Source: Deuterostichococcus epilithicus
Taxonomy: Eukaryota > Chlorophyta > Trebouxiophyceae > Prasiolales > Stichococcaceae
Reading direction: 5' to 3'
Length of the DNA: 64,000 nt
Assembly (NCBI GenBank): GCA_033439295.1
Contig: JAVTLE010000023.1
Location: forward strand, 124,001 to 188,000
Each line of letters starts with the position of its first letter. Positions within the stretch are counted from its first letter, which is position 1. The translations under genes and the position numbers were made by a program. The notes beneath the pieces were generated by a model, which made no database searches, was not told the DNA's origin, and saw only the letters and a program-made list of their open reading frames with translations. Positions 1 through 64,000 of this stretch are shown piece by piece.

Positions 1-3000
1 CCAGCTTCCTCACCCTCAACTTCCAGGGCGAGGTGCGCGCATGCTGTACGTACTCAAAAGGTTCAGGTTCCAGATTTTTGAGGTCAGTTTGCGCCCTGCA
101 CAACCAACGTGCACCTTTCAGATCGTTGAAGACTCTCAGGGACTCTCAGGGCAAGGTCTTAAGATGCCATCTGAACGTTTGCGTTTACTGCGGATCCGCC
201 CATTTCAGGTCCCAATTTCGCAGACGATATGTTGATGAGCAGCCTGTCAACGCCAGTATGCATGCCGCCTTGCGGACAGGTCTGGATCTGTGGCGCTCCA
301 TTTGACATTGGAATGAAAAGGAAATGAACAGGATGTAGGAAAACTCAACGGAAAGGAAAAATTTGCGCCACAGGAGGAGGTGTGGGAGGTGCTCAACGTG
401 CTGGAGTACTCCAGCGCGCGCGCGCGCATGTCCGTCATTGCGCGGGGGCCCGACGGCAGCATCTTCCTATTCTGCAAGGGCGCCGACGCTCGGGTGCGGG
501 GGCGCATACGCCCTTGAAGTTGCCGCGTGATGGTTGCGCCCCCCCTGCCTGTCCAAGGCGTGCTGTTGCATTGTGGCGAGGTGTTGAAGATACGTACCTG
601 GGCGCTCCGACAGCAGCTCTCCGGCGCTACTGCCAGGCTGTACCACTAGTTGATCCCGGCCGCGGGATCCGACACAGCTGGATGTCCTGCCGGTGGCATC
701 TCGCGACTCTTACTCTCTTTTGTCACGTTGGTGCGTAGATTTTGATACTTGGTTTTTCTTCTCAGTCTTCATTTCCACTTTTCAGGTCCTGTCAATGGTG
801 GAGGGGCGCACTGAGCCGGAGCTGTACCGCGCAACGGAGCAGAATCTGCATGAGTTCGCCGTCAATGTGAGTCTGTGGTCTCCCTTCGTTTAGCTGCGAG
901 GCGCCACCCACTTCGCACAATCGCATGATCGCACAAGGCGAAACGTCCAAAACTAAACAGGTTCCCGGCCTTGGATCTGACGCAAGAAATTGGCGCTTTC
1001 GCGGTCCCTGCTGGCTGGGCGGCTCAGGACTGTTTGGGGACTTGCATGCTGCTGGAGCATCTGCACTTGTAACGGAGGTGTCAAAAGGTTTGTGGGGACA
1101 GCACATTGGTCGACAGACTGCGGCGCAGGCGGCACATGGGCAAGGCTCCGCTCGACCCTGTGATCGATGGGCCCACTGCCTGGCTGCAGCCTCTTTGCTG
1201 ATGTGGCCACCAGTGTGCGAGCGCTGCGCATTCCGAATCCGAACGCTCTGGTAACTGCTACCAGGGCGCAGTCTTCTGGCCGATAAAGCTGCACGCATTG
1301 TGGGGTTTGCCGGCAAGGGTGTCCTGACGGCCCAGCGAGTGGGCGCCTCTCATGATGCACGATGCCCGCCGATTAGTTGATGACATCTCTTGTTGATGCA
1401 CTGCAGGCTTCGCACAGTCATCTTTTGCGCCAAACTCCCATTCGGTGGCAATGCAACCCGCTGACTCTTTCCCCACTGCTCAGCAGGTTCTGAATAGGGC
1501 TTCGATGGTGGTCAACAAGGAAATGGGGCAAGTTGGTGGCCCGCCTGAGCTGCTCTTTTTGCATTTTCCTCAACGCAATACCAATAGCAACCACTTGATG
1601 CTACAGGGCCTGCGCACGCTGGTAGTTGCCAGCAAGGAAATGGGCGAGGATGAGTGGGCGGCCTGGGACGCGCGCTACCAGCAGGCGGCTGCAGACCTCG
1701 ACCGCCGCGACGAGCTGGTGGGTGTCGGACTCCTCTTCACGTGGCATGTGTGACGCACCCTCTGACGTTTTGGATCGCCACTCCTTGTGGGATTCCATCC
1801 CGGGAGCTCCTTGAAGGGGGCTGCCTGTCGTCCCACGACGCCGCGTGCACAACGTCGGTGGACGCCTCGCCGCTGTGCTGTGTGCTGTGCTGTGTCCACT
1901 GCTACAACCAGCTGCAACACTGTTTCGTGCACCTTTCCGTGTCTCGTACCTGTTGCGTCATTCGTGAACCCAGGTGGCCAAATGCGGGGAGGAAGTCGAG
2001 CGGGACCTGGAGCTGACAGGCGTCACGGCCATCGAGGACAAGCTGCAGGTGCTTCGTTCCTATTATGAGGTTTTGGGTGTAGGGTTCAGGCCTCCATTCC
2101 CTGCAGGACATAGCCGTCCTGCCGTGCCGGCTTTCTTCTTTTGCGATCTGCAAGGCCCTGCCGGCCCTGCCGCACCGCAGCCGCTCTGCACCGCGCCGAG
2201 CCACAGCTGTTTGGGACCCGCGGCCGGCGCCCCGCAGAGCCGGCTGGGCGGCGGCAAAACCCTGCAGTGCAGATCGGCACACCAGGCGGCATTCACAGCG
2301 TGCTGAAGGCTGTGGACGCCTGGTCTCTGACCACGCAACCATGTTCTCGTCATTCACTTCGCTTTGGTTTCTCGAAACAGGACGGTGTGCCGAGCGCAAT
2401 CCAGAGCCTGCTGCAGGCGCGCATCAAGGTGTGGGTCATCACCGGCGACAAGCAGGAGACAGCCATCAATATCGGCATCGGGTGCAAGCTCATCCTGCAC
2501 CCCGACAGCCTGCTCATCTGCAACGCCGACAGCTACGACGGTGCGCGAAGGCCTGGACCGCGCGGCCTCAGCACCCATGCTGCAACTTCGCCTCCTCTTG
2601 GCGGCTTGCTTGGCAGGGACCCGGTCCGGCACATGCTGCCATCCTTTGGCACACGTCGCACCGGCACAAGCATTCTGCACAGGCGCCGTGAGTTGGCGCA
2701 AGCTACCCTGCGCCAGAAGTGATGCGGCCCGCAAGCCTGCGGCGTGGCCGCGCTGCAAGTGCGCTTGTCCAGTGACTGGGGAATACATGCCAACAGTTTC
2801 ATGCCACCTGCCATGTAGGAGCCGCAGCGCGTCTACAGGAGCTCCTGCAGATCGTGCGTGGATCCAGCGGCGGGCAGGTGAGCAGCCGCCACTGCTGCCC
2901 TGAACGCTCAATTTTAGCCTCGCTTTCTGTGTCGAAACCCAGGCGCGTTGATTGTGGGTGTGCTGGGTCCCTTCGCTGGACACAATCGTCTAGCATTGAC

Positions 3001-6000
3001 ACGGGAGGCTGGGGACCAGTCGTTGCAGCACCTGCGCTCGGCCATGGTGGAGTGGGCACAGGCAGAAGGATGGTGTTCTATGTTGTAGTCAAGGCAGGCG
3101 CCACAGCCTCTGCTCATGTGTCCACAATCGTGCTGTTATGTTCACAATCACAATCATGGCACGCAACAGGAAGGCAAGGGTCGACCGGAGCTGGTCATCG
3201 ATGGCCTCACACTCAGCCATGTGCTCGGTGCGCTTCCTGTTTTGACAGGACTGATGGATCTAAACCGTCTGGCGCTTCGCTCTCTTGCGTGCACAGTGCT
3301 TGGCGCATGGCCGCCAGCTGAGAGTCCAGTTTTTTTTATTTTTTTTATTGGCGAAGCATGAGACGTGCCACCCTACGAAGCTCGGCAGCAAGAGGCTATT
3401 GGGGTACCCCCCTTTGACACACATCAGATGCGCTGCCATGTGGGGTCATGTGCTGACATGGCCGACTTTCGGCTTGCCCCCACAGAGCACGAGAGCGAGC
3501 CTGTCCTGGCGCATAAAGAAGCAGCCCTTTCCCTTTCCGTGTCAGGTCATGTGCTGACGTGGTTGCACCGACTTTCACCGCAGAGCACGACAGCGAGCCC
3601 GTCCTGGCTGAGGTGGGCAGCCACTGCGCGGCGGTCATCATCTGCCGCGCCAGCCCCAGCCAGAAGGCCGCGGTGGTAGCCATGATGTCGGAGTGGGAGC
3701 TGCGGCGGGCCGGCGGCCGCGGGCGCGGTGTCGCCGCCTGGTGGCGCCGCAAGCGCTTCCGGCTGCAGGTCCGCCTGCTTCTGCGCTTTCAGTGCATCGG
3801 ACTGCAAACTCCCATGCAACTCAGTCTGTCTCGTTTTGACACTGGTGTTGAGGGGCACAGCACGGGTGAAGGGCGCATGGCAGTGGCAGGCGCGATGCGG
3901 CTGATCTGGGAGTCCCTGTCTGCGCCTGAGCAGAGTCAGGCATTTCCGCCACAGGGCAAGATGCTGGCCATCGGCGACGGCGCCAACGACGTGGCCATGA
4001 TCCAGAGCGCCGACATCGGCGTCGGCATCCTGGGCAAGGAGGGCCGCCAGGCCGTCAACAACTCCGACTACGCCATCGGCCAGTTCCGGTGCGGGTTCTC
4101 AGGGTTCAGCGAGCTGTTTAGGGGAGGGCCAACTGGCGCGCCGTCCGCTGCAACTCTATCCGGTGCTGCTTGACGTGTGTTGTGGCCTCCAAAACCTCCA
4201 CAGAATGCTTACAGCTGTTGTGCTTGGTAGGGCTGCTGCTTAAACCTACCGCCGCTGCCGGGCGCCTTATACTGACGGTGATCCTGTTCTTGCGCGCGCA
4301 GCTTTCTTGTGCGGCTGCTGCTGGTGCACGGAACACTCAGCAACTACAGATTAGCACGTCTCATCAAATATTCGTTCTTCAAGAACGTAAGCATACTTTG
4401 CTCCTGAGTGCGTGAATCGTGACCCCAATGTAGAACACCACGATGTTGAATGGACCCATATAACATGTACTTGCCTGTATCTTCAATATGCACGAGTACC
4501 TCTAAGGTGCGAACCAGAAAATGTCGCAGAAATCGAATTCTTTTGACGTTACATGTGCCATCGGTGCAGGTGCTCTTCTGCTTTATGGTAATTGTCATCT
4601 GCCCAACCACCTGCACACACACAATGGCTTTGATGCATCTTGTCCCCTCCAAACACCGATGTGGTCCGTTCTGCGCGTCATTTACTGCTGACCTGCTGGT
4701 GTTTGCTTCCCTGCAGTTGTTTTTCTTCCAGGTGATTGTCATCTGCCGTCAAATCTGCACACCACACAATGTCTTCTATGCATCTTGTCCCCTCCACACA
4801 CCAGTGTGCTCCGTTCTGCGCGACATTTAGTGCTGATTTGCTGGTGTTTACTTTCCCGCAGTTCTACTGTGCCTTCTCGGGTATGTCCTCCACTTCCGCC
4901 CTCCTGTACCACATGCATGCTCCCTCAGCCCTGTGTCGCTGCACGTCCCACTCTTCAGCCCATACTGGGCCAGACCCTCACAGCGCACTGTGCACATGAT
5001 CGCAGGTCAGACGCTGGTGGATGGTGTTGCTGCGGCCGTCTACAATGTGAGCTCTCCATCCTTTGTCCAGCCCGTCGCCAGTCTGGTCTGCCATCTGCAT
5101 GTGCATATGGCCCATAAACATTCGCTTCACTAGTCACTGGTCGCTCTGCCAGCGTCCAACCTGCGTTGTTGCTCCTGCGCAGGTCATCTTCACGTGAGCA
5201 CCGCATCTGTCACCTCTCCCCGCCTCACCCTGCCACCCTGCCACTCCTGTCCCTCTGCCGCTGCCTCACTTCACGTGCTGCCACGTGCAAAGTCCACATC
5301 GCTGACGATCAACTCTGTTTTGCCCACTGCCTGGCTGTTCTGCAGGTCGATACCCATCCTGCTGTACGCTGTGCTGGACCGGCCCGTCAAGTACTTCACG
5401 ACACTCATGCGCTACCCCCAGGTGCGCCAATCCCAGAAGCTGTGGTGACAACTGCAGGCCAGGGGCACAGCGTGAGGTTGGCAACCCTGTGGCGGGTCAA
5501 TCTGCTCGACGAGGCCTGAAAGATTAGTACTGTTTCTCGAAACTGCCGCTCCCGTGCAGATGTACAACCGGGGGCACTCCATGGCGACGACCACCTTCTG
5601 GCGCTACAGCGTGGGGACGGCGCTCCTTGGGGGAGCCATCGTGTTCTTCTTCTGCTACTATGCCATCACGGTAGGAAGCTCATTGATGATCGTGGTGATC
5701 TTGTGAGCTGCCTGCGCCTGTCTGTGCCGGGTTGGCATGGCAAAGCCCGACGGTGCGACAGGACAGCTGCAACAGCGAGGTCGATGTGTGCAGAGTGGCC
5801 AGCGATCCGGGACGCAGCGCCCGAACTGCGGTCCTCATGCATTCGTGCATGGTCGTGCAGACTGGCAGCTGCAGCAGCATGGCGGTCTCCCCGGTGCCGC
5901 CCGCGGCGGCAAGGTTGTTTGAAAGTAGGCCCTGAGCTGCTGCCTGTGGCTGCGCAGGAGGGCGGTCGCAACAGCGTTGCGGACCTGTACAGCGTCGGCA

Positions 6001-11600: not shown

Positions 11601-14600
11601 ATCTCTGCCTTTCTCTCCGGCAGCGCCGCAGTCGAGACTCGCCAGCTCCGACCTGGTATGGTCTGCCCCTCCCCCGGCCGTGCAGCCGTCCAGACTCGCC
11701 AGTCTAGACTCGCCATTCCCGACTTCTTCTCCGCACCCCAGCGGCATCGGCTCTGACCGGGCGCCTGCGAGCAGCGCACACTGCAGCTCATTGCTTGCAC
11801 CACACCTCGCATTCGAGTTGTGCTAGGCTCCGACTATTGCGTTGGTACTCATTCAATCATTGAAACCTACATGTTCGCGTCTTGCGGCCGCAGGCGTCCA
11901 GTGCGCCGCCTACCATGCCGGGCTGCGTGACGCCCAGCGCGCCCAGGTGCTGTCCGACTGGGCGGCCGGTCGGCTGCGCTGCGTCGCGGCCACTGTCGCG
12001 TTTGGTATGGGCATCGACAGGTCGTCAGTGCGTCTGGTCGCCCACTACAACCTGCCAAAGACCCTCGAAGGGTTCTACCAGGTGAGAGAATTTGTTCATG
12101 GCCTGCGGCAGATGGATCAGCTGTGGCGTGGGAGACTGGGGGGAAGGGCCCGACCGCGCGGCCATGCAATGGTTGGAAAAAAGAGGCTGCCGCCGGAAAG
12201 GTTGAAACCAAAAAAGGTTGCCGGTTGAACCGGCAGAGGAAAGAATGCGTATCGAAGCCTTGGCATTTTGCTCATAGACCACCAACCAGTTGTGCGCATG
12301 GCGGCGCAAGATTTTTTTTGCCAGAGGCATGGCACGATTCCACCAGGGGAAGACGCTGTGACACTCCTGAGATGCAGGGCAGAATAGTGGGAGCCTGGCA
12401 CTGTGTTTGAACGTCCAGCGCGCACAGGCCTTCCCACTCGCATGTGGTGTCACGCGCTGTACTTGCCGTGTACTCCTGCAGTGTCCTGCGCCGGCACAGT
12501 GTCCTGAACCTGAGCCCGACTCGCCGACTCTTACTGACAATGCGTGGCCTCATGTGCGGGTCGCGCGCCACAGGCCGTCGGCGCGAGCTCCAGATCGCCT
12601 GCGCATGGACTCCTGCTCCTGACATCCACTGTCCACGCTGAATGAAGCTTAACAATGGAAACCCGACCGCTCAGGAATCTGGCCGCGCGGGGCGCGACGG
12701 TCTGCCGGCGCAGAGCCTGCTGTACTATGAGGTCGCCGACCGCCGGCGTATGGACTTCCTGACGCAAAACGGCGACAAGCGGCGCAAGACGAGGAGGGAC
12801 AAGGCTGCTGGTGAGCCGCTGGCGGGTCGCACATGGCGTGTGACGGGTTTCTGTCCCATGCTGCCACCAGCCCGCGCTGTGACGACACGGACAACTACCG
12901 CACCTCTTGACACTGCCTTGCGAGCTAGATCCGTGAGAGCTTGCCACAGACCTCTCGCTTGGGAACCTTGACCTAGCTGGTAATCTGGCCGACATGCGGA
13001 CCTTTCTGCAGTGGTGCAGAGCACACCAAAAAGCTCATGACTTTCTATGTTGCAGCTTTGTTGCTTCTTCATGGCAGTTCCTTGAAGCCTTCGTCAATGC
13101 TGCAGGGAGCGACCAGGAAGCGATGGCGGCGGCACGCAATTTTGGCGAGGTGCGCCCCTCCTCACAGCCAGTGTCCCCAGCCTCGCGCCAGCCTTTTGGG
13201 TCTATGTATGCAGTAGGCATGCTGCAAAGCAGAGGGAGACCACGCAGCAATGGCGGCGGCGTGCAACTTATTGTCATTATCGTTTTTCTTCCCTTGAAAA
13301 TAAAGTGCGCCCCTCCTCCTGCGCCACCTCCATCTTCTCACATGCTGTGCTCGGGAGTCGTTTGTGATGCCTGGTCACCATGCTGTCGCTTTTTGAGAAC
13401 CGTCGACGCCTTATCAATCAGGACTCAAAACGTGAAGGCTGTCCCGTTGTTGCGCCATGAAGTGCATTTCCGCCAGCAGGAGCCTTCAACCCTTAATAAG
13501 GCAGCGGGACCTAGGGCACTGCTGAGGGACAGGGCAGCGCTTGTAACTACTCTGCTAATGATGAGGGGCGACGGCTCTCGTGCGTAAAGATAATGGCAAT
13601 CGCCACGAAGGCGTCCTTCCGCCCTCCTAGAGTTTCGTTCTTCTCCTAGTGGCCACGAACGGCTGTTTCCACCTCAATGATGGTGCCGTTCTGGCGCAGG
13701 TGGTGGCATTTGCCGCCGAGGCGTCCTGCCGTTGCCGCACCCATCCATGCACCCCGTTCAAGGGCTTGCCAAGGGTTAGGGAAGCACGTGTCCCAGACCT
13801 CCGAAATGCTGGTTGCACAGGTGGTGCAATATGCCACTCGTGCGTCCTGCCGCCGCCGGGCATTACTGGCGCACTTCGGTGAGGCGCTGCCGCCGGGCAG
13901 CTGCGGCGGCTGCGACGTGTGCCGCGATCCCATTGCGGTGGAGCTGCAGGTGTTGCTAAATCTATTGTACTGTTTTGGTGCTTTTGTTTCGTTTTCCATG
14001 GCTATGTGACTCCACTTCCGCTTTCGATATTGCTAAGCGTATCGGGGCCTATGGTAACGACATATATCTGGGTGTGAGGGTTCTTCTTGTCTGAAGGGTG
14101 CGCACAGATTCCGGCCAATTGTCCCCAGCTTTTGTCCATAGCGAATGGCAGATATGGATGGAAGTGGCTTGCAGATCGGCCATCAGCCACCCCGAAGCAT
14201 CGTCACATCGCCAGTAACTGGCAGTGGGCTGGGCTCGAACTGCGACATGCTGATGGGCTGGCGGTTGAAAAGCCTCGGCCTCAGCCTCGCTGTTGCCTGC
14301 CTTCCTCTCTGCGGCGTCATCACCCTGAAATCTGCACTCGATTGATGTATTGCCAACCCAGTTGGCGAGGATGGAGGCGAAGACCCTGGCATCGCAGCAG
14401 AACAGCCGCCTCGGGCAGCGCTTGGACTTTGGCAGCGGCAGCAGTGGCGGCGGAAGCAGAAAGCGGCGGCGCAGCAGCGGCAGCGGCCTGGATGACTACG
14501 ACGCTGAAGGCTGGGCGGCAGGTGGGAGTCGCTGCCATGCATGTTGCCAGAACTCACTAGTGCGTCCTCAGCATTTCATGTGGCATTTCGAAGCACTTCA

Positions 14601-20300: not shown

Positions 20301-23300
20301 TGGACAGTTTCGAGGCTGTTTTGTCTGCAAACTCCTACGAGCAGGGCGGTCGTGTCAAAGCCCCACCCATGGTCATCAATGTGCAGCTGCGACGGGCCGC
20401 GTTGCGAATGCATGGGGGAACCCATCCTGAAAGATCCCTTGAGTGTGTACCTTCACTGCTCGACAGGTGTATGCAACAGGGCGGCTCACCTGGTCCTCGA
20501 TCTCCAGCTGCGAGAGGCCGCGCCGAGCGCGCAGGTGGTGGAAGTCGACGAGCTCGTCCGGCTGCGCCACCGCCTTGGCCTCCTGTCAAGGAATATGGAC
20601 AGCGGCGTCAGCATTGCCAAAACGTTTGCCTAGGATGAGAAGGACAGTCAGCGACGGGCTCTGCCCAGCCGCATGTGGTAGTTATCTTGCACCGAGCTGA
20701 CCCGGCTGCGCCACCACTGTGGCGCCCCATCTCCAAGTCGGCAGACGAGTACTTTAAGGTCATCCTGTGTTGCATTTCTAGCAACCTCAAGGTGCCGAAT
20801 GCAGCTTTCGGAAGCTCGTCCAGCTGCGCCACAGCCTTGGCTTCGATGTGCCACCTGGGGAATGAGAGAGAGCGAGCAAAATTCTGTTATTTCCTTTGCT
20901 GGCTCAGCCATTTCGCGGATCGATGCTCCGTCGGAGGATTGAAATATTGTCTTGATCTTGCCAAATGGTGGCAGTCGAACAGGTCCAAGATGGCCGCTGC
21001 CTTCGCCTTGAAGGCACAGCCGCAGCCGCGTGTTGTGCGAAAACTTGGATGGTGATGAGAGAGGATGCAGGCAGATAACGTCATTCAGCTTGGCGGTGTG
21101 ACATTCAGCCATGAGCTCATTTTCAGCTCCTGTGGCCGCACTGGTGTCGACAGCACCAGCGTGCAAAGCCAGGCAGATGCAAGAGCGCCTTGACTGCCGC
21201 TGCAACCCGCTAAGCAGCACGTGATCTGTCATGCCTCCTCTGCGAGCTATGAGTGCTGTGAAACCTGTGTCTGCCCATGAACCCCCCGTGACCCCCTCCG
21301 TGCTATGTGCACGCACATTGCGCCTGGACGCCACCACGGCAAGTGAGCAGGGGATGTCAAGTCCAACTAGACTTAGTTGAACTTGTCACCCCCCGACCCT
21401 GAGCAAGGCAAGCGTTTTCGCATTTGCCATGAGAGGCTCTGTGCCTCAGCCAAACCCTGCACACACCTCGTGCTGGGCGTTCTGCCGGGGCAAGTGACTG
21501 CCTGTCGCAGATGATGCGCGTGAGGACCGATCTGCTGAGGGTGGGCGTGGAGGTCCTGAGACCAATCAGGGATCGACAGGGCCACAGGCCTACTGGCGCG
21601 TGCCCACCCTTCAAATGCATCACGGCTGAGCCCTGCACACACCTCGTGTTTTGCCTCCGCCGCGGCGAGAGACTGCTTGTCGTGGATGGTCCGCGCGAAC
21701 GCCGCCCGGCCGCCCTCGAGCCAGATGCGCGTCAGGCTCTCGTCGCTGCCGCCCGCCAGCGCCTGCGGGGTTTGGTACGGAGCAGTTTCAGAAGCGGTTG
21801 CAGAGGTGCCAGCAGACCATGGGCTCCCGTCCAGCCGAATGCGCGCCAGGCCGTCGCCGCCGCCCCCCGCCAGCGCTTGGCAGGGTAGGCAGTGTACAGC
21901 GCAGATTCGCACTCGAAGCTTCAGCGCTGAGAAATTGGGAGTTTTTAATCAAGCTGGATAGCGGTGCTGCTGGTGGACAGCTCGACGTGTGCCAAGCGCT
22001 GCTCGATGGGTATACGACACTGCACATAGTTGCTGGCTGCGTGCACACCTGCAGCGCCGCAGAGATGCGGTCGGCCGAGTCATCGTCCAGCGGCGAGCCA
22101 GCCGCCGGGGAGGAACCCAGGCGTACAATGGCGGCGCACACCTGTGGAGGCAAACAGCATCGGTACCTGTTCAGGCATGCATTCTGGACTGTTTCATGAA
22201 GGAGGTTATAGACTCCACCGTGGAACGCGGCCGACCTGCCCTGCAACAAGCGGGGGCCACCTCAGGCACGCTGCGCTAGCTTGTGCCCTGCATTCCGGAT
22301 TCATCACTCGCAGGGTCGCCACTGCCGCCACCATCGTCGGCGACAGCATCATCAGTACGGTAGCCTGATGGGTGGTCCCGAAGGCCGACCAAAGACGCTA
22401 ACCGAAACCACAGGAAGCGCAGGGCAAACAGTCTGCAGCGAGTCGGCGATGCCACCCCACCAGCATGGCCTGGGCGGCGGTGCGGTTGACGGCCGGCGGC
22501 GGCGCCGAGCCCAGCGCCCGCAGCCGCATCACCAGCTTTGCGAGCGTCGCCGCTACGACCCCGCCCAGGAAGAAGTCGCCAGTCAGAAGCAGCGACCTGT
22601 ACAGAGGGTCGTAGAGGGTTCGCAGTCTCGATTCCGAGGACACAGGTTTCAACCTGACACTGCAGCAGCAGCCCCAGCTTGCTGAGCGTCACTGCCAGGG
22701 TGCGCCGAGGAACAGAACGCTGCTGAACAGCAGGTATCTGCAGCGTGCTTCGATTGAGATCCACCGGCGCAGGGTGGATGGGTGACAGATTCAAGTTGGT
22801 GACTTCGTGACAGCCCTTGATGCCGCCTATGCGGTGGGCGCAGCACAGCAGCAGCACCCTGCGATACACATGTTTGTGGTAGGGTCGAGGGCATTGATGG
22901 GGGCGCAACGCCGTCCTGAAGCTGTGCCATTCAGGAGCAGCGGCGTGCGGCCCAACAGCGCGGCGGGCAGGTGACCCCGTGATGCACACGCTTTTGCCGG
23001 CATACAACTTGCCGGAACGTCGGAGCACCGAAACAGATGGCGCTGCTGCCAGCAGCTCGGCGGCCTATCAGGCCGACCCAGTTCGTGGGCAGGTCAGAAA
23101 GCACGCCATGGCGGTGCTGTGCAGGAGCGCGGATGCAATGGCAGTTCAATTTGCAACAACATCAGCATGAGCACGACGCCACTTCCCAGGAGAGGGAACG
23201 TGCCAGCTGCAACAGAGGAGCTAAATTGAGGGCAGCAGACGGATGGGCTGTGGATACATGCATTCGTTGAAGGTCTGTCACCTGAGGTTGTGCGCGTCGC

Positions 23301-31904: not shown

Positions 31905-33508
31905 CCGCAGGACGATAATGGACGCAGCGGCAACGGCGGCGGAAACAGCGGCAGCGGCAGCGGCAGCGGCAGCGGTGGCGACGGCGACAGGAACATCGAT
32001 GCCAGGGTGCAGGGCGGCGGCGGCGAGCTGAGCGCTGAAGAGGCAGCACGATTCGGCGGCGGTCGCGACTCTGCGGGCAGAGACGAGCAGCGGCCGGGGG
32101 GACTGGGTCTGCCGCCGCCGAACCCGCCACCACCCTTCAGGTGGGTTTTCAACGTCTAGGGCAGCCATTCTGTGATGCATGACACCGACCACCTGCTAGT
32201 TGGTGCATGCTCGGCGTGTACGCTGCAGGCAGACAGCCGCACAGTATGACGACGAGCCCTCCCGCCAGCTGCCTTCCTCTGGTGTGAAACAGCAGTGCGG
32301 AGAGCCGGCAATTGCACCACAAGTATATGTGCTGCGCTCTGGGGTAGCAGCCTGCTAGGTACCGTGAAGGCCGAGGTTCTATGTGCCTCAGGCACGAAAC
32401 ATATGTGCAAAGCCTCCAGAGTTTGGTCCCACAGGCAGCGCACACAGCTAGCGGAGGCGCTGCTGGCGGGGAGTATGTTAGTTTTAGTTCAAGTTTCTGG
32501 AAATTCTAGACCTTACGAACTAAATTATATTTCAGGCAGCGCACGCGGCTGGCGGAGGCGCTGCTGGCCGGGCCGTCGCGGCTGGACAACTACTTCGATG
32601 TCAATCCGGCGCGGTCGCTGCTGTGGCTCGCCATCTCCTTCTCGGCGGGTGAGGCTTCGGGTTCTGGGTTTTTCAGCTTGTCCGCTTCAGTTCTGGGGCT
32701 CAATCGAACATGCCTTCTTGCCTGTCATTTGCTGGGTGGAGCTCCGGAGGCAAGTCGCTGGCCGTCTGATCTGCAAGCCAGCGGGTGCATCAGCTGTCTT
32801 TGCGGTTTAAAGCTCTGGTGGAGCGGCAAGCTTTGCTGAGCAAGAGCGTTAGCTGCTCTCTGAAGCTGCACATTGTGGCATTGTCCTGGAGGTGTCGAGA
32901 CGTTTTCGATTAGAAATCCTGAGCCCCAACACGCTTTGTGTGCTTCCAACGATAGTGGTTGCACTTCGTAGCTCTGGATGCAACACGTAGGCAGGCCACC
33001 TAGCTCCGCGTGCTCATCGCTGTGGCACCCTTGCCACTGCAGGCTTCTACTGTGCCAACACGGTGTCGCTGTCATTCGGCACCCTGGCAGTGAATGACGT
33101 GGTGGCAGCAGCCGTCACAGTTGGTTTTGTCGAGGTGCGGACGATCATTATCGGACGATGGTCCAACCACGCCTGAAACGGCGTTGTTCAACGTCACTGA
33201 CACTTCGATTCCACACTTTGACACTCGCGTGTGCACTTGAAATCTGATGTCCTGCATTCGCTGCCAGACGAAGTCGTTGTGGCTGCCGCAGTCCGGCCCC
33301 GGGCGCCAACCCGAAACCCTTCAGCCAAGCACTCATGTGCCCTCAGGCTCCTGCGCCGCCCATTCCTAAGAAAGCATCCTGCGCGCAGGTGGTGTCGTAC
33401 ATCTACTATCAGGCGGAGGTCGTCGGACTGCCGCTGGCGCTGGCCAACGCATTCAAGATGGGCGTCATTGCCGCACTCATCACAGACGCGTTGAAGCTGC
33501 AGGGCTAG
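31826..33508 (+). CDS. Ycf20-like (DUF565) plastid membrane protein, 5' end unresolved
   Basis: Ycf20-family proteins are small membrane proteins of cyanobacteria and plastids; a role in non-photochemical quenching has been reported in green algae. Exons recognised: 31826-32140, 32536-32648, 33043-33134, 33389-33508 (stop 33506-33508). The first encodes a proline run, Gly/Ser-rich linker and an acidic stretch; this N-terminal part is not conserved. The family core follows: RLDNYFDVNPARSLLWLAIS, then GFYCANTVSLSFGTLAVNDV, then VSYIYYQAEVVGLPLALAN ending in DALKLQG, with two or three hydrophobic spans. The acceptor at 31825 is phase-compatible but the initiating ATG and transit peptide exon were not identified. 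Confidence 0.8.
31869..31909 (+). repeat. CCG microsatellite encoding a poly-proline run
   Basis: An almost pure CCG/GCC triplet tract of about 40 bp lies inside the first recognised exon of the Ycf20-like gene and encodes around 16 consecutive prolines, with two CCA interruptions. It is probably length-variable. Confidence 0.85.
32433..32471 (+). repeat. Recent copy of Ycf20-like exon 32536 start and acceptor
   Basis: The 39 bases match 32534-32572 (AG acceptor plus codons for RQRTRLAEALLAG) with four mismatches, 101 bp upstream in the intron. The copied acceptor CCCACAG looks at least as good as the genuine TTTCAG, so mis-splicing could add an in-frame or out-of-frame segment. Confidence 0.9.
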
Positions 33509-41900: not shown

Positions 41901-44900
41901 GTGTGCAACTGCAGTTGGCAGTCCTGCACTGTGCTCATGACAGGCTCAGAACACGGGCCTTGACACGGCGGTGACACTGTCACGACACGACAGCTGCACG
42001 TCCTGCGCCACAGCCGCTGTGGCAGCTTGGTGTTGCCTCCACCCACCAAAGGCCCCTTTGCTTCAAACACCGGGTCTCCCCATTGATTTTTGAGATCTTC
42101 AGTTGATCTATGTGTCTTGGCCAGAAAAATCACGCGCCTGCAGGGCGGGCAGCCAGTGGAGGGGCTCTGTGAAGTGCGCGATGCAGAACGCCAGGCTCGG
42201 CTGTGCCTCTGGGTGCCACGGAACGATGCGCTCGTTTTCCGGCTCCAGCATGTTGCCGCCCACCTGCACACACCTCAAACCACATCAAACAGAGCGGTGG
42301 GTCCAGATACTTCGATTTTCAGTCGTTTGTGAATCCTCGGGGCGGCTGTGATAGCCAAGGCAGCAGGGCACCCCAGACTGTTGCTGCCGCTGTACCCCAG
42401 TTGGAATGTGAGGAAAGGGTCCTCCGCAGGAGGCCCCCGTCTTCACGAGTGTGGCGGCCACCCAAACCCTGTGCCCTGCGCGATCGCGCTCGCCTTCAGG
42501 AGCGTGGCCGACCCAGCACATCAGGGAACGCCCGGCCTGCCGCGGCGCCGGCGCCGCAAGTCTGCTCAGAGCTTTGCAAACTTTAGGGTTCAGACTCCCG
42601 GTGCCCACCTTCACAAGGGTGGCGGCCAGCGCGTCGGCGCGGCCCGTCTGCAGCGGCGCCAGGGAAGCCAGGCGGAAGCCCTGCTCGGCAAAGCCATCGA
42701 ACACCGTGCGCAGCCAGGAGGTGTCGTCAGTGCCGCTCGCAACGGCGGCATGCAGCTCCAGGAGGATCTGTGATACGTAGAAATTTCCTTATCATGACAA
42801 AGAAGATTGTGCGCAGGCTGATGCGATGAAGGCTCAGGGTCTGGGAGCCGGTCGCACAGCGGCCGAATGGCGTGCGCAGACGCAGGACCGCATGCAACTC
42901 CGGTAGGGTCTGTGGGCTTTACAAAGGTCTGGGCGGCACCTCAGGGTTCGGCTCTGGTCCTACCTGGAAGGCGCCTACAGGTCCGGCAGGAGGGCCGAGG
43001 CTGCACCGCCGCACACCTCGCCCACTGACCTGCCTCACACAGTATTCAACCCCCTAAACTCTCCATATCCCACCGTGCATCTCCTCTGAAATCACGCTTC
43101 TCTCAACTCCCACCTGTGAGGCGTTGATGGCGCGGTCTGACCGGAGCGCCAGGTCCTGCAGCACCTCCGCATGGCGTGCCGTCCGCAGGTCGGCAACGAG
43201 CAGGTCGACCCAGCTGGCGTTGCGCTGCTCCACCAGGACATTCCAATCCATGTCCTCCGCCTGTGTTGACATGCATAGTAAGACCCAGGTACTATATAAA
43301 ACAGTGGCAAGAGCAGGTCGAACCAGCTGGCATTGCGCTGCTCCACCAGGGCATTCCACGCCGACTCCTCTGCCTGTGGAAAGCTGTGCAATGTATAGCG
43401 TGTCCCCATGGACACAGAAGCGCCAAACGCGGATCTGCACCGAGCAGCTCGGTTTGGGGAGCTGCTGTGCCGGTCCAGCAACGCAGTTTCCTCTACCCTT
43501 GCCATCGGCGCAGAGCAAGCGCAACAACCAGACACAGCACCGCAGCAGCAGCGGCGAGCCACTGCGGCTGCAGGGCTGCAGCAACGTACTCTGCTCACAC
43601 TCACTCAGGCGCTTCGCAGATTCACGGCCAGTCTTTCGCCAACACTGCACCTGTTTCCCCAAAAATCTTGATTATTTAGAAAAATCGAAAGAAAGAATTA
43701 ATTGAAAGCACCTGCCAGGCGTCGAGCGCGCGGCTGTCCAGGCTGCAGCCCGTCTCGTTGGCAAGGCGGCTTGCAAGCGGCAAATGCTTCGCATCCGCCA
43801 GCAGCACCACGGCGCAGCTCGGGTGCGTGAGCAGCGGCCCGAAGCCACACACGAACTGGTTGTCCTCTGCCGATCGCCCGATCTGCAACAAAAGAAAGAA
43901 ATTTAATCAAAAGTAGAAAGGTGAGCAGCGGCCCGAAGCCGCACACAAACTGGTTGTCCTCCTGGCGTCCGCCCGATCTGCAAGGGTTTAGGGTTTGACC
44001 CAATGGTGCTGCTCCCGGGGCTCGGTGCTCAGACTGTGAATCCGGAGGAGCAGGGACGGGGGTGGCAACGCCGGCAGCGGCGGGAAGGCATACGCAAGAG
44101 CTGGTTGGCGTTTGAAATATTAGTGTTCTGCCCGCACAAATCACAGTGCACAGACTCCGCAGTGTTTGCAAGGCAGGAAGGTCCCAGCAACCATGCACGG
44201 GGGCTCAGAGCTGGGCTGCTCGATGACATTTTGCGATGTGGAATGGGTCCAATTGATGCACATCAACATCAGACGACGACACAAGGCAGCCTGCGCCATG
44301 CCAGGGTGCAAGGGCATGCAGGGCAGTGGCGACGTGAGTGCCGACCCGCAGCAGAGGCCCGTGCATCGGCCGCTGGCTTCCATGGCCGCACCCTCATGCT
44401 GGGACGCCACAGGGGGCCGTGCATGCCGATACCGGCTGCTGCATTCCCTGGCACTGAGGTGTTGATGCACTGAGCTGTGGAGCTGCCGGGGGCTGCCCAC
44501 CTGCTCTAGTTCAAAGGGGCAGCTGTAGAGTTCCCCGGGCGCCACCGCGAGCGCATGCCGCACAAATGAAAGCTCTCTCTGCCCGCCGGTGCCAAACACC
44601 TGCAAGTGGATGCAGGACCGAGGTTCGTGCCTGAACCACTTTTGCACCGGGATAGAGGTGTCATCGTGATCGCCACGCTCGCGGGCAGACTTGTCGGCAG
44701 CCAGGACAGGTCAGCAGTCCGGCTCGGGCAGCGCAGGGCAGCGCAAAGGCGCTGCGCCATGCAGGTTGACGATGTCGTTGCCCCAGATCAGCCTGCTGGC
44801 ACACAAGGGTGGCATCCTGAAACACGCTATGCTCGGGCGTCCCCTCCCACAATATCGCAGGCAGCTGCCGTTAGGCATTCCTGCAGCGCCCACAGCTCCA

Positions 44901-45597: not shown

Positions 45598-45666
45598 TCA
45601 GATGTCCAGGATGCTCTGCACCTCCTGTCGGCCGATAGATGATGCAGGGCTGACTGCCTGCAGTCC

Positions 45667-45701
<35 letters not shown>

Positions 45702-47883: not shown

Positions 47884-48761
47884 CGATAGGCCGCCCACGC
47901 CCGATGGCATTGTGTGCAAGATGAGCTGGCCGCGAACAGATTTTGTGGCGGCTGATCGATCATTTACCGCGGATCGCTCGGGAAGGTGGGCCGGAGCGAA
48001 GATGTAATCTTGGTGCCATTGGCAGAACTTCCTAACAATTGAGACAGATCTGCACTGCTTTAAAAAAGAATGGTAAGGCGAGATCTGGGTCGGAAAGTCA
48101 GCTGTGTTCGTGAACGTTCAGGTTTCAAGGCCCCCTCAGTGCTTTCAGATCAGTTAAGCCACATGAGTGCCACGCCACTGGAGTGACTGCTGCACCTGAG
48201 CACCACCATACTCCGCCGCACGATCTATCATCTATATGGTTTGTCAATCGCTAAATCAATGGGTGGGGACCGCGTCAAGACACGCTGCCAGCATGTGGCG
48301 GACAGATGCCGCCCAAGACGCCGCCGCCGCAGCGGCGGCGGCAAACTTGCTTCAGCAGTGCAAACAGCAAAGCACCGTCCTGCAGCATCGCAGCACCTTC
48401 GCTGGCTTCTGCCTGTCTGCCACCGGCAGTTGGCTCGGCACAGTTGCAGCATGCGAGCTGGTTTGCATCGTCATGATCGCCAGATGTTTGCCGCATGTGC
48501 CATGCCGCTCGCCCTGGCGCTGCAGCAGACGTCTGCAGCCTGCAGCAGCATTGCAAGACAACGAGGTGAGCGCATCGCAGAGTGGTGGGCTCAGCACTGC
48601 GTGACTATGCCAGACAGTGCAGTGGCCAACAGCCACCACGCACTACGACCGCCAGCGGCACTCGCCGTTGCGCCGCAGGAGACCTCGGACAGGAGGCATA
48701 ATGAGGCAGTACTACGAGATGCAGAGTGAAGTGCCTACCTGCATCAGTGAGGCGCAGCGGC
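47884..48761. other. Intergenic region between Ran and the NPF-motif gene
   Basis: Both neighbours are on the minus strand, so this holds the Ran 3' UTR and the NPF gene promoter. A plus-strand ORF at 48236-48604 arises from a GCC/GCA triplet tract and has no family resemblance. Confidence 0.5.
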
Positions 48762-51700
48762 CTACTCGCCGATGTCATCGTCATCTGTGCAGGGGACAGG
48801 GCAAGGTGCGTCAGGATTGAAGAGGCGGCAGGCTGCGGCGCAGCAGTCTCAGGCGAGAACACAGGCTTCGGAGCTGCGGCCGCATCGGCAGCGATAATGC
48901 ACAGGCAGTTTCCTGTGCAGCAACTCCTGTGCAAACTGACCTGCGCAGACAGTGTGATGTGCAGGACAGGAGCAAGGTGCGATGTAACCTGTCCATATCA
49001 ACCTTGAAAGAATACTGCAATTACCTGCGTCAGGCAGCGGCACCGCCATGGCCTCCTGCAGCTCGTTCTCGTATGCCTGCAGCCACAAGGTTCCAAGGTT
49101 TCAGAGCAGCCACAGTTTGCCGTCGCCATGCTCAACCCCCGTTTGAGGCGCTCTGCTCACTCAGACCACTGTCAACTCCTGCCCTCCTGCCATTCTTGCT
49201 GACATCTGAGCCGATCACTCCCAACACTGCAGTGCCAAACGTAATCAGGTGCCGCTTCGGCCACTCCGGCCAGAATACGCTGAATAAAGAGAACGGCCCC
49301 AAGACCACACGCCTGACGCAGAGGCGTAGGTACACGACACAGACAGCACGTTTGCCATAGGGGGACAGATATTCCTTCGATTCGCACGCCTGCTGCTGCG
49401 CGTGGTCAACGACCAACTTGTGCACGGCATCCGAAAGAGCAGGAGCAGGCCAGGGCAGGGTTTATCGAACCAGAGGCGCGCCTGCTGCCGCGCGTGGTCG
49501 ATGTGACCAGGTCGGGCAGGGCACTAGCAGCGCATGATCAGTGAGATTAATGCTAAAAATGACAGGGTTTCTTAGAGGAATGCGTGCCTGCTGCTGGGCG
49601 TGGTCGATGACCACCTCCGGCGGCTGCAGCGCCACCTGCTCCACGAAGTGCAGGTGCTGGTCCCTGCGGCAACAGCCACACCTTCTCAGTTTTGAGTTCT
49701 TGATGGAAATGTCGCTGGTGCAGTGCCACCTGCTCCACGAAGTGCAGGTGCTGGTCCCTGCAGCGAAAATCTAGGGTTTTCAGTGCTACTAGGAGTTATC
49801 AAGACTTCAGGTATTGTGGTTTGACGGGAAACATCTCGCTGGTGCAGCGCCACCTCCTTCACTTCAGGTGATTGTCCCAGCGAAAGCAGAGTTTGAGAAT
49901 CATCCGTCTTGAACAACCGGTGAGAGGGTTGCGCTTGATTGGACGTCTAGGAATGATCACAGCGTGTGGCGGCTCACGCGCTGGGCTCTGCGCTTCCTGC
50001 TTTGACGGCCTCTGACTTCATATTGCAGGACCACCGACCAGCTCGCTTCCAAATCCGATCCTAGATCGCATTCGCAATGTCCATGCACGTCAACACCCAA
50101 CCGACGAGCTTGCGAGGTGCAGGACAGGCTTGACATCTGCAGGACACAAGACCTTGGGGAGCAAGGCCCTTGAATGGAGTGCGCACCCGACGAGCTTGCG
50201 AGCCAGGTACAGGAAGGGCTTCTCGTAATTGTAATTGGACTTGGCGCTGATCTCGTGGTACTGCAGGTTCTTCTTGCGGTGGAACGTGACCTGCGTGACA
50301 GCAGCTGGAAGCTGGAAGCTGGAAGCGGCTTCTGCAGCGCGAAAAGCAGTCTCCGTGGCGCTGCATGCTACGGTGGGTCGGCGGCGGAGGACGCGTGACA
50401 GGTGTTCCTCTGCTGGCTAGACCATCACGCGGTGACCCCATGGGGCGGGCTTTGCGCGGCAGTGATGCACACCAGTCGTGCATGCACTCGGTAGTGGAGG
50501 TAATGGCCAGGGCTGTAGGTCACAGCATCAGGCATGGGGCAGTGAAACGCGAGGGCGCGAATGTGCACACCTGCTTAGGCTTGACCTGCCGGTTTTTCAC
50601 GTCCACCTTGTTGCCGCACAGCACGACCGGGATGTTTTCACACACTCTGCAGCCATTGAGACAGAAAAAGGCTCAGATCCTTGCCACATGCAGAGCCGCC
50701 TGAGCCGCCTGAGCCGCCTGCTGATTATGAAACCAATGGCTCGGAAAGCCGACCCCGTGTGCACACGCTCAAGTGCAGTGTCTCGCATGTGAACTGCAGC
50801 AGCTGCAGTCTGCCAAAGAGCAATGTGTTTCCAGGCGCTGCTTTGGAATTTAGCCGCCATGGTTGTGCGGCACACTTGACGGGTGACGCTAACATGCCGT
50901 CCCACCGTGCATGGCACCGCAGGGATCAGGCGTGAGCGAGGGCGCGCACCGGCACAGGTCGCGGTGCCATGTAGGGACGTTCTTGTACGTGAGCCGGCTG
51001 GTGACGTCAAACATGATGATCGCGCACTGCCCATGGATGTAGTACCCGTCCCGCAGGCCTGCGGTTGTGGAGAGTGTGTCAGTACTGTGAGGGTTGTGTT
51101 GCAAGACATCACGGACGACGACAGCGCAGACGATCCTTCCTGAACCTGTGCCATCGACGTGGATGATCCAGCGGCAACAGCTGAGGATAGTGGCTCAGAC
51201 GCCTCCTGCGGGGCCGCGCAGCTGCCCGCGCCCTGGCACGCTGTCGCCCGCCATCGTGCAGCGCGCAAGCGCGACGGCAACAGGTTGGCCCCTGACAGCA
51301 GCTGACAGAAGAGTGCAACGAACAGGGGCGCCCGCCGGCGGTGGACAGGGACTCACCGCCGAACTTCTCCTGACCGGCCGTGTCCCAGCAGTAGAAGCGG
51401 AGCTTTCCGCGGTTGGTCGAAAAGTCCAGCGGGTGCACCTCCACTCCAATCGTGGCTGCGCCGTATCAGAGAGAAGGTTCAGGCTTTCTGGGAAGGAGGG
51501 CCCAACTCATGTGCAGCGTGGGCGTCGAAGCCAGAACCTTGGCCGCTACGGCGCTGCAGCAGCAGCAGCAGCAGCCGCAGCAGCGGCAGCAGCCGCGCAG
51601 CATGCTGGCACTGGAGACAGGGGTAACACAATTGAGAGTGTGCTGCAACCGGAGCAGCAGAAGATAGGTGCACTCACGCTCGTACTTCTTCTCGAACTCG

Positions 51701-52456: not shown

Positions 52457-57675
<5,219 letters not shown>

Positions 57676-58528: not shown

Positions 58529-61500
58529 TCACGTCGGCCGGTTGTGTATGCCGCACTCTGTCTTCAGCGAGCCGTCCGGATTGGACAGCCCCTGCGCAGC
58601 AGCAGCAGAAGACGGATGTAAAGGCCTTACGAGCTCGTATGCCAATGCGGTGCTCGGGTCTCCTGCAACAAGCATACGGCATGGCGCAGCAGTCAGTTCA
58701 TGTGCCTGAAAGCAGCCGGAGCGCTCGTCGTCATTCTCGTCGTCTAGTTCGAACCACCGCTGTCTTCTCTCGGGAACTGGTGCTTTTCATTTGGATGATT
58801 GCGAAACCCCAGCTACCTGGAAGCGGCCAGAGCGCTCGCCGCCATACTCGAACCATTTCTCCCGCGGCACCGTCACCGTTGACTGCACATCGCCGACGGA
58901 TGGATACCCCTGCATGCATCGGGCAGGGGGAATTAGCAGACGACCTGCAGCAGGCATGCAGGACTCGAGGTGCGGCAACTGCCAGCCGCAGGCTGCGGCG
59001 CAGGTGGCGCCAGCCGGCCGACTGGCCAGTCCTGCGCAGCTCAGTGCCGCTGCCGCGGCAGGCCGTGGCTGCCAAACCGCGGGCGTCTGTCTACACATAA
59101 AAGAAGCTGCCCCTGCTGCAGGGTGGCTGCCCGCGCTGGAGGCGAGTGTTCGTCGGACAGCAGCTGCGCAGGGGACGGCGCAACGGGGACGCCTCATGGC
59201 GATTTCGCGCCTCGAATAGCTCTTTCGGCGAGTGCTGGTGCAGGCCTGCGCCTGGGTTTTCTCTTCGTTTGAAGTCTTTGAAAGAGGTTAAACAGGAACA
59301 AAAACGAAACGCGCCTGCGCGTGCAGCGGGTGGGCGGGCACGCCGTGTGACTCCAGGTATGCGAAGCAGTCGGCGAACGTCCAGTGTGCCAGCGGCTGGC
59401 AGTTGACCGGGTCGGATCCCTCAAACACCTGCGTGGTGCATTCAGGGTTCAGGCAGGTGTACCACCGTTGAAGCGTGTGTACGAAGCTGTAGCATTTGAC
59501 CGTCCGTTGCCCAGAGGCATCTGCAGCGGCTGGCAGGTACGACAGAGTCAGGCAACCTGACAAAACCCTAAGGCAGGCAGGACACAGGGATGCCTCCGCG
59601 TTTCCAACAGTGAGTTGTCTGGTTCGTCCCCCTTGCGGCCACGACTCTGACGACCAGAGGGTGGGGGTTGTCTCCGCCACGAAACATGGACAGAACCGCC
59701 CTGTGCCGACGCCGTCTGCCGCTGCGCGCGCGCGTGGCAGAGCGAGAGTCCGATGGGCCCTGTGACTGCCATGCACAGCTGGCATGCGGGTCCAGGCACA
59801 ACACGCGGCAGGCTTGTCCTCGGGGCTGCCTGTCAGTCAGGCCAGACCGCCGGAAGGAGCGGTGGTCTCTTGACATGCTGATTTTTATGGAGCACGGCTG
59901 ACACAGCGCTCAGGCTGCAGTGGGCCGCTCTGCGGTGCGCAGCTCTGCTGACGTGGAGCCGCCTAATCGGCACCACCGCAGCTGCTTCCAGCGCTCCTGG
60001 GCCGCAAACTACTGCAGCTCTGAGCGCCGAGCCTCGACCCTCTAAACCCTTGCCCGTGCCCAGCAGCACACAGCCCATGAGTGTTGGCACGCCCATCACC
60101 CCCCTACCCTTGACCTTCCATCACATGACCTCTAGATATAACCCCTTTGTGCATTCATATAGATCGTACAAAGCTCTCAGGTTTCCCACCTCCAGGAAGG
60201 CACGCTCGAAGCCGTGGTCGCGCCGGCGACCGTTGATCATGACGTCCGCCTGCAGTGTCGCGAGCGCCCGGCTGAAGGGCTCCACCTGCACAGGCGGAGT
60301 GGCGCCAGACGGATTTCGGAAAGCGATGATGGGGTTTTGAATTTGTGCTCTGTTAATTTTCTCCTCTGGAGTTGTTCGTGGCAGGGGCCAGCGGCGCCAC
60401 AAAGCCTTCGGCGTCCGGCCAAAACCCTATTAGAAATCTCTGCCTGCAGTGCATGATGTCAAGCAGTGGGCATGCCGCACTTCGGCGCCGGCGTGGCACA
60501 CCAGTGTCGACGGGGTCCTGGCAATGACAGGGCCATCAGAACCATCCGCAAAGGCACTGCCTGTCGGGGATCAAGATCCGAGGCGGTCGCCTCAATCGAG
60601 CCGCCGCAACATCTCGCCGCCAGAGCACCAGCTGAGCGGCCACGAACAGCCGCCACAGCCGCACATGAACACGGCTTGGTGGGTGACTGTTAACCCTGCC
60701 CACCTTGCAGATGCGGTCGTACTTCTCGATGTCCGTCATGTACAGGTCCGAGCCGTTGGCTTTTATGTAATCGTCCCTGCTGGCAAAGTCCGCTGCATAG
60801 AAGACCTCCGCCTTGAATCCGAGCTCCGCCTGGGGATTGTGAGACCACGCGTTGACATTGGACACGGTGTGCACATAAGCGAGTTGACCGGAGGGGGCGC
60901 AAGCCAGGGCAGCCCCCTGTGCTGAATGCCTTCGGAGCAGCGGAGCGGCAGGACTGGATGCCGGTTTGTAGTGGCACGTGCTTCAGTGTGGCACGCTCCC
61001 CTCCGCAGCAGGAAATGACAAGGTGTCTCTCATTCCACTTGGAGGGCCCTCCAGGACCATCAAGGGGCGGTGCTCCTGGGAAGAGAGACAGGATTTGCCT
61101 GCAAGGAAGAACAAAGGACGCACCTCCAGTTGGTGCAGGAAGTCGTGGGTCTCGGGGAACAGATGAAAGGTGTCGATGAAGACCACCTGCGCTGTCCAAC
61201 GTCCCCGGTGGGTTTTCTGATATGTTTCGACATGTTGACGGTTGACATCTTGACATCTTGACAATCTTGACAAGGCGGTCAAGATGCTCCGCGCAACACC
61301 CCGGTGGCAACCGCTGCGCTCCCGGCAGGCAGCCCAGCTTGTGAGCCAGCTGCAGTAAAATCGGGCATAACGGCGGGCAGCGGCGGCGTCGCAGCTCTTG
61401 AATTCAAATCCTGTTAGAGCCTGTTCCTTTCTTCTCTCTCTGCACAGTCGGACAGGGACGAGGCTTCCGTGTGACGGGCACGGTGAATCTCAGGCGGCAC

Positions 61501-62780: not shown

Positions 62781-64000
62781 ATGAGCCTGCGTGGTTGTTC
62801 CGGTACCAAAAACACCCCAGGCGAAACCAAGATGTATAGTGAGGATGCGCAGTCGCGCGCCAAGCGGCTAGGAAGAGGTCATTTAGTGTGTCTAGTGTTG
62901 GCTCGTGTCAACAGGTGCAGAGGAGCACCAGCATTACGCCTGATCTCTGCTTACGTAGATCTTACGTAGATCTTTGCAGGATTTCCCAGAACGCAACAGC
63001 CCGAGCATCCCTGGGATCTTGAGTCCTCTCTCGCCGTTCCGACATGAAACGGCGGGTGTCGGATGCAGAAATGGGACCGCTTTCGTCATGATAAAGCCTG
63101 CAAAGACTAGCTTATGTCTTGCGCTCTGCGGTCGTTCAGGCTTTGAAAAACCGGACGATACTTGCTGAGGACGAACAGGCGGCCTTCGTGATTCGCCACA
63201 GTAGAAAGCAGCGGCACGACAAAATCAGACATGCCGGCAAAGGACCGCTGCAGCTCACTGCTCTGCTGCCGCGGCAAGCCTACGGCAGAATCAGAGGAAG
63301 CAGACGAGACGGTATGGGCGCAGCTGGGGAGCCATCGTGCTGCAGGTGGGTCGATGATTTGAGCAGTTGAACCCACCGCACAGCATTCATCAGCATGACA
63401 ATGTCGGAATGTTGTGTCCCGCTAATTCGCCATCTTGATCGTCGATTGGCGAAGGAATAGACAAAAGCTGGCAACCGCTCACTTCCAATCCGACTGTGCC
63501 GACGTGCACAGTGGAGGCGGGTGCCCCGGGTAGCTGTGACAGACCCGGAGGCCAAATTTTCGGTAGCATCCAGAATGCTGACACCGGCAATGATGTGCTG
63601 CAAACCTTATGCCGTGCTGCATCTCAGCCACTCTCGCCGCCGCCGATCTGTCAACCTGTCCCCAGCATTATCGCCTTCCCCACTTATCAGATGCTGAGAA
63701 GGAAGAACCAGTTTGATCTGCCTTCTGCAGCTAACTGATGTGTCAATCGCAAGCAGAGGCCCGCAGCCGGCTGGCAGCGCTTGTGCCTGCGAAGGTCCGG
63801 CCGGCGTGGCAACCCACCCTGCGGCGGGATCTGGGCACAGCTGCGCTCGGCGCGCCCATCAGCACAGCAGGCGCCCCTGACTATGTGGCCTCAGTCACAC
63901 GGGACGCCTGTCCACTCCTTGGATTCCACCCACTCCATACCGCTGCACGCCAGCGCCCAATGCCCGGGTGCGTACCCCACTCCTTGGATTCCCTGCACTG
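62781..64000 (+). CDS. Possible 5' part of an unrecognised gene running off the right edge
   Basis: Not recognised. An ATG at 62781 opens a hydrophilic, basic segment (MSLRGCSGTKNTPGETKM, then YSEDAQSRAKRLGRG). From an AG near 63750 a plus-strand frame stays open to the window end and reads like coding sequence (AEARSRLAALVPAKVRPAW, RRDLGTAALGAPISTAGAP). Whether the two belong together cannot be shown; the 0.9 kb between them contains no clear exon. Confidence 0.3.

Follow-up and report, generated by a model that had tools for sequence, protein, structure and literature searches.

Copies of exon edges and their splice sites in introns of the green alga Deuterostichococcus epilithicus

Introduction

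Intron lengthening and splice-site turnover have usually been reconstructed from scattered cases. One described system is the potato RdRp gene, in which a tandem genomic duplication spans an intron-exon boundary (PMC4974935). Here we describe introns of the green alga Deuterostichococcus epilithicus that contain direct copies of the edge of the neighboring exon, usually with its splice site. The analysis covered a stretch of 64,000 nt (assembly GCA_033439295.1, contig JAVTLE010000023.1, positions 124,001 to 188,000; hereafter the window, whose own numbering is used below) together with 25 other 10-kb stretches from this genome, giving a total of 314 kb. The assembly consists of 46.8 Mb in 21 contigs, one of which carries rbcL, as expected of a photosynthetic eukaryote; the encoded Rubisco was most similar to 8q04 and 1gk8, the latter from Chlamydomonas.

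The potato case resembles the algal copies in that the 3' side of an intron and the 5' side of an exon were copied directly and adjacently with their splicing signals inherited, and its geometry is that of the plain tandem minority of events in the alga (PMC4974935). It differs in being a single, plain tandem case that made a new intron (PMC4974935). In the alga, by contrast, the copies recur throughout the genome sample, the old intron tail is not recognizable in most spacers, and existing introns were lengthened.

In Daphnia, the direct repeats associated with intron gain are reportedly short (about 5–20 bp), whereas the algal repeats are mostly 25–80 bp long and lie at one end of an old intron. 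Intron gain through exon duplication at an exonic AGGT likewise duplicates exon sequence directly and locally and is tolerated via splicing, but there the donor and the acceptor lie in different copies, and we found no clear signature of this arrangement in 541 algal introns. Introner elements insert as families of similar copies, whereas all three algal spacers searched were without another match. Staggered double-strand-break repair in Daphnia, as outlined in section 9 of a review (PMC3443670), likewise leaves direct repeats around an insert; however, the insert itself becomes the new intron. Repair-mediated proximal duplications of vertebrates are short local copies with filler that include pieces of exons and splice sites, but they were found in interrupted transposons (proximal median 147 bp), were not tied to exon edges and in one instance comprised a full, inverted exon (PMC2671141). 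Among the matches listed from the open-licence literature, there was no account of genome-wide exon-edge copies in introns.

Exon-edge copies at splice junctions

In the window, 28 splice junctions had a copy of the adjacent exon in the flanking intron. They were distributed over eight of the nine gene models, and one of the copy-bearing models is probably a fusion of two genes. A sequence-only reading of the window had claimed more than 20 such junctions in at least eight genes, which agrees with this count, and each of the clear cases that it named overlapped a detected copy, with ends off by a few bases. In the final models for the 314 kb, 36 of 514 acceptors were accompanied by a copy, as were 20 of 509 donors; shuffled exon-intron pairs would be expected to give 0.7 and 0.2, respectively. 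The copies were therefore far more common than in the shuffled pairings that had been proposed as a control. The distance to the exon edge was 80–160 bp in 42 of the 56 copies; acceptor copies peaked at 100–140 bp and donor copies were spread over 80–140 bp.

The gene models were produced by a self-trained splice-aware gene finder (loci L001–L008 and L029 were left out), which converged on clear splice signals, namely CAG/GTGCG-like donors and TGCAG/G-like acceptors. The Ran GTPase model aligned with yeast Gsp1 without gaps (E 5.9e-109), and the malate dehydrogenase model was collinear with a solved structure, with small gaps (E 1.2e-117) and an uncertainty of a few residues at the 55568 junction. 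The repeated peptide was absent from both aligned proteins. The splice copy in use was deduced from the reading frame and conserved proteins.

The side on which a copy lay was almost fixed. At a score of at least 36, with about 1,760 shuffled pairings per class, the 365 internal exons of the first model set gave 21 matches between an exon start and the upstream intron and 6 between an exon end and the downstream intron. The opposite sides gave 0 (start against downstream) and 1 (end against upstream), and there were none for reverse complements or shuffled pairings. The second model set (401 exons) gave 17 and 5 matches on the expected sides, none on either opposite side and none in reverse complement, while three classes of its shuffled pairings gave no match and the fourth gave 1 of 1,948. 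The rule that exon starts are copied upstream and exon ends downstream, put forward from the sequence alone, is thus nearly without exception. Further, exon-interior segments matched flanking introns in only 2 of 353 cases.

The first self-BLAST of the window (at least 33 bits, less than 3 kb apart) detected 19 local direct pairs at offsets of 94–218 bp and no local inverted pair. In 200 kb from other contigs, there were 38 direct pairs less than 500 bp apart and three local inverted pairs; the 314 kb contained 82 direct and four inverted pairs. The description of the copies as always direct and local agrees with this search of the window; elsewhere a few local inverted pairs exist. All four inverted pairs of the 314 kb were in L015, where they probably sit in one mobile element. 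Direct and inverted repeats with GGCCCTATCCTTTCT motifs cluster at L015:8263-8936, which is probably a mobile element or what is left of one.

Copies were denser in the window (28 junction matches in 106 introns) than in the rest of the sample (28 in 435). The median intron length was 336 in the window versus 218 outside, so that the excess is explained in part by longer introns; the copy rate in the window was still higher within three of four intron length classes.

Structure and decay of the copies

A typical acceptor event reads, in order, old intron tail, AG, exon edge (the relic), spacer, AG, exon edge and the rest of the exon; a donor event is the mirror image. The repeated block covered 20–78 bases of the exon. 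In 28 of 35 events it also took in 0–16 bases of the intron. Copies of 30–70 bp had been described, but the aligned blocks actually spanned 19 to 109 columns. Identities ranged from about 63% to 96% with no break, as anticipated for copies of mixed age. Assembly error is an unlikely source of the copies, because typical copies are at most 96% identical to the exon and differ by substitutions. Only two pairs were 100% identical, one of 22 bases in L024 and one of 19 columns in L014, the latter not a typical case.

The mismatch rates at the three codon positions of the real exon were 0.151, 0.124 and 0.208. Mismatches thus hit all positions with some excess at the third, indicating free decay of the relic and conservation of the exon. 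An in-frame excess was sought, and the offset was a multiple of three in 8 of 35 events; selection of offsets by reading frame is therefore not supported. Two introns had both a donor and an acceptor copy (Fisher p 0.29).

Intron length and intron birth

Copies were present in 35 of 103 introns of at least 350 bp versus 5 of 310 introns under 250 bp. The distance from the donor to the relic acceptor had a median of 334 bp and was never less than 167 bp, save for one misplaced case among the 36, so that the relic occupies a position at which a viable intron might have ended. Further, introns can grow by repeated events, as seen in the arrays of Ran, malate dehydrogenase and L020.

For intron birth, we compared the intron head with the next exon start and the intron tail with the previous exon end in 541 introns. 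At a score of at least 28, there was one match of each kind (controls, 9 of 2,575 and 1 of 2,575), and at a score of at least 24 there were 6 and 5 (controls, 23 of 2,585 and 20 of 2,589). At a score of at least 32, one match of each kind compared with 0 in the control, and one or two births among these introns are possible. The process gives no account of the high intron number, which the sequence-only reading had proposed to explain by it. The same reading envisaged a continuing process that lengthens, moves or gives birth to introns; lengthening and the moving of splice sites were supported by the range of identities and the length classes above, whereas births left no clear signal.

Spacers and flanks

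For the spacer GC tests and the strict flank test described below, 52 of 79 candidate alignments were kept (intronic reach -1 to 25, offset 60–300, exonic reach at least 15, spacer at least 20). The flank upstream of the relic was acceptor-like (median p 0.003 versus random intron positions and 0.0009 versus random positions in the same intron) and was not clearly weaker than real acceptors (p 0.07). The GC content of the spacer was 51% compared with 59% in the relic flank (p 1.8e-4) and was lower in 35 of 52 events; in some of the youngest events the spacers were AT-rich, with 22%, 26%, 35% and 36% GC. There was no excess similarity of the spacer to the continuation of the exon (8.12 versus 8.18) and no excess of spacer self-complementarity over shuffles. 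Three of three spacers searched across the 46.8-Mb assembly including the plastid contig, in a search that skips very common words, had no other match, suggesting that these spacers are unlike members of an element family.

Origin of the copies

On balance, we consider it probable that the copies are short exon-edge duplications with new spacer, which were kept as the splice site shifted while the mRNA remained the same, and which lengthened the introns. The best reading is that splice sites were replaced and that introns were not born. In such an event, the exon edge at an existing border (about 20–80 bases, usually with 0–16 bases of the splice site) would be duplicated directly, with typically 30–100 bases of new spacer between the copies. 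If the spacer held a working splice signal, the spliceosome would move to the copy that is continuous with the remainder of the exon, leaving the old splice site and exon edge as a relic in an intron about 110 bp longer. Events would persist because use of the new site gives the same mRNA as before, and their repetition would build long introns and swap old splice sites for fresh ones.

Repair of staggered breaks with filler can yield a repeat-spacer-repeat order. As the origin of the copies we prefer, with modest confidence, fill-in repair at staggered breaks in which filler was inserted. The direct repeats enclose non-homologous filler, the arrangement by which break-repair insertion is recognized. 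The survivors would be those in which the spacer makes a splice site that beats the old one. They should have a full exon edge (intronic reach of at least 0) and lack an intact old splice signal, because an intact upstream site would win, and 28 of 35 events lay within both limits. The spacer is expected to contain a strong site and on average it does; the acceptor now used in copy-bearing introns was stronger than average (p 9e-5).

Several observations weigh against this explanation. In 7 of 35 events the block ended before the splice site, which is unexpected under the model. Other young spacers were not AT-rich (46–72% GC), and the trend of spacer GC with age was not significant (rho -0.20, p 0.15). 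When both strands were searched within 5 kb for a local template, none of 11 spacers had a match better than the top score of 40 shuffles, with one tie; thus, no organellar or other genomic source of filler was detected for the three spacers searched genome-wide or, locally, for these 11. No source that was compared accounts for most of the spacers. In a looser test with longer flanks, 8 of 32 events were at or above the 95th percentile of the control (mean 9.5 versus 8.4), and mean flank similarity was 9.5 versus 8.3 for shuffled spacers. Finally, no clear event resembling those at exon edges was found among matches to noncoding pseudo-edges, although random break repair should have left more.

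The pseudo-edges matched in 55 of 3,400 and 55 of 3,384 cases, in 22 clusters. Ten clusters were further copies of exon-edge arrays, seven (six pairs) were other repeats with a gap under 30 or a length over 100, one was a tandem pair beside an exon, and four scored 32–36. One of these four, 48508–48568 with 48661–48721, was the sole noncoding candidate of the size of exon-edge events; it is 68% identical and near the threshold. A random process should mark introns and intergenic DNA alike. Accordingly, either duplication targets exon edges, or selection favors events that yield a fresh splice site, or a diverged source hides noncoding events. There are two weak signs that noncoding events are invisible, having come from diverged DNA, namely a synonymous lean and the rarity of near-identical pairs (see below).

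Plain tandem duplication across the splice site, if the intron part then decayed more quickly than the exon part, would also produce direct local copies, and ordinary tandem duplicates of 66–157 bp are present in the sample. Under the strict test, which asks whether the spacer resembles the relic flank more closely than 95% of mismatched pairs do, intron flanks were similar in 3 of 52 events (3584 in the window, L024 9482 and L015 3653) and 49 were below; plain tandem duplication predicts 27.5 and chance 1.2. Among the ten youngest events, one was flank-similar compared with 9.9 expected. The Ran array and the 24673 event retain weak flank similarity, and the looser test suggests that the tandem minority may exceed three. 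As the general explanation, however, plain tandem duplication is improbable. Thus, of the tandem duplication of an exonic segment that had been suggested from the sequence, the direct local duplication stands, but a plain tandem unit does not in most events.

It is also unlikely, to a similar degree, that a mechanism coupled to splicing or to its RNA intermediates repeatedly inserts copies of exon edges at their own locus and provides fresh, stronger sites, in which case long introns would largely consist of relics of discarded sites. Still less probable is an RNA-guided form of copying, in which a splicing intermediate or nascent transcript would template repair synthesis near its own gene, and the copied blocks would be bounded by the splice site or branch point. 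The intron-side block ends at 0–16 bases from the splice site agree with it, as does the single weak noncoding candidate, but it would explain neither the acceptor-like flank of the relic nor the lack of exon starts in downstream introns.

We regard duplication between homologous chromosomes or strains that had strongly diverged, the exon parts being alike and the intron parts not, as just as doubtful as RNA-guided copying. It would make both flanks genuine yet unalike and would hide noncoding events. Consistent with it, differences in the youngest pairs lean toward synonymous changes (14 of 22 at an identity of at least 0.9, then 12 of 25, 31 of 86 and, below 0.8, 185 of 572), and the only pair above 96% identity in the pair survey was 22 bases long. 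However, each of the two genes tested has a single locus in the assembly, and the spacers are AT-richer and the acceptors stronger than average, where average ones would be expected. Further, the diverged DNA would have to come from an unusual source.

Old tandem duplicates in which gene conversion from the real exon renewed the exon part would account for the first Ran copy, which is 96% like the exon while the neighboring spacers are far apart. In the clustering test (47 alignments kept, 44 with at least three mismatches), mismatches were spread along the block with slight clustering (mean z 0.40, SE, standard error, 0.15). This clustering is weak, being significant singly in 2 of 44 events, and near-identical pairs are not piled up, making gene conversion very unlikely. 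Chance similarity, gene-finder bias or assembly error can hardly be responsible even though the gene models are computed, given that shuffled pairings are nearly matchless, two conserved proteins confirm exon borders, and the copies differ from the exon and from one another.

Individual copies in the window

Gene names other than Ran and malate dehydrogenase are those of the protein families to which we presume the genes belong. Rfam and tRNA scans of the window gave no matches.

The start of the Ran exon 49588–49663 (minus strand) has a first upstream copy at 49719–49764, which is 96% identical, and a second, more diverged one at 49836–49885. The end of this exon has a first downstream copy at 49476–49503 and a second at 49384–49418 with a GC donor. 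The exon itself ends in a GC donor (CAG/GCACGC), and both intronic copies retain the GC. A further Ran exon (50187–50290) has a downstream copy of its end at 50098–50131. In the malate dehydrogenase gene (plus strand), the multiple copies that had been noticed at 54285–54546 were confirmed as three, upstream of an exon edge at about 54612–54617: the first at 54503–54546, the second at 54403–54441 and the third, most diverged, at 54283–54351. The start of exon 56516–56629 has an upstream copy at 56374–56449, and a short array of TTTGGG/TTTTGGG units lies at 56638–56675.

On the plus strand, the gene with the exon starting at 32536, which we take to be Ycf20/DUF565-like, has a copy with the old acceptor and exon start at 32432–32471, followed by the spacer with the acceptor now used (32472–32532, 26% GC, no other match genome-wide). 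On the minus strand, the end of exon 40090–40206 including its donor is copied downstream at 39977–40030, and the spacer between the used donor and the copy (40031–40085) has 36% GC and no other match genome-wide. Upstream copies of exon starts, likewise on the minus strand, were found at 43306–43378 for exon 43114–43260 and at 43921–43983 for exon 43712–43882, the latter with a spacer at 43889–43920 of 22% GC. The minus strand at 38.9–45 kb encodes a predicted secreted or lumenal protein, in a gene with several of the youngest exon-edge copies. A comparison with a large protein database, using a query that mixed two predictions and a relic stretch, gave 0 of 8,000 scored candidates at E 0.001.

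In the P4-ATPase-like gene (plus strand), the upstream copy of the exon start at 3584 lies at 3480–3510. The intron tail is duplicated too (3436–3510 against 3537–3608), making this one of few such events. The same gene contains a full tandem duplication at 4587–4863 (offset 144 bp, 84% identical), whose stretch ends in CAG; this is an ordinary tandem event. The RecQ-like helicase gene (plus strand) has, at 13229–13269, a downstream copy of the exon end at 13102–13149. The coatomer beta-like gene (minus strand) has an intronic copy of the start of exon 20490–20582 at 20813–20844, and exon 21643–21762 has both its end copied downstream (21455–21523) and its start copied upstream (21827–21879). 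Three further upstream copies of exon starts are on the minus strand: 24763–24815 for exon 24438–24673, where the copy was the only other genome match reported; 26461–26504 for the exon start near 26362–26374, with a further copy at 26584–26646; and 35679–35732 for exon 35512–35612. The end of exon 58817–58909 of a presumably PAPS/APS-reductase-like gene (minus strand) is copied downstream at 58705–58739.

Telomere-like AAACCCTAAACCC runs were observed near intron tails at 24683–24700, 39322, 39868, 43987 and other sites in the window. A telomere-like origin of the spacers was considered and rejected: TTTAGGG occurs in several intron tails, yet there were 23 occurrences in 290 kb compared with about 24 estimated from base composition. 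The 10-mer TTTAGGGTTT, counted on both strands, occurred seven times in 290 kb, above our base-composition estimate, and AAACC was enriched upstream of acceptors; these motifs may be a branch or pyrimidine signal.

Implications

Gene prediction in this alga is affected by the copies, because relics can pass for exons; indeed, a gene-finder run took the relics at 32435–32465 and 49730–49757 as exons. About a third of the sampled introns of at least 350 bases carry a relic. Dozens of events of graded age are present in 314 kb, with the old and the new splice site side by side, and splice-site competition and the source of intron sequence are therefore directly measurable in this genome.

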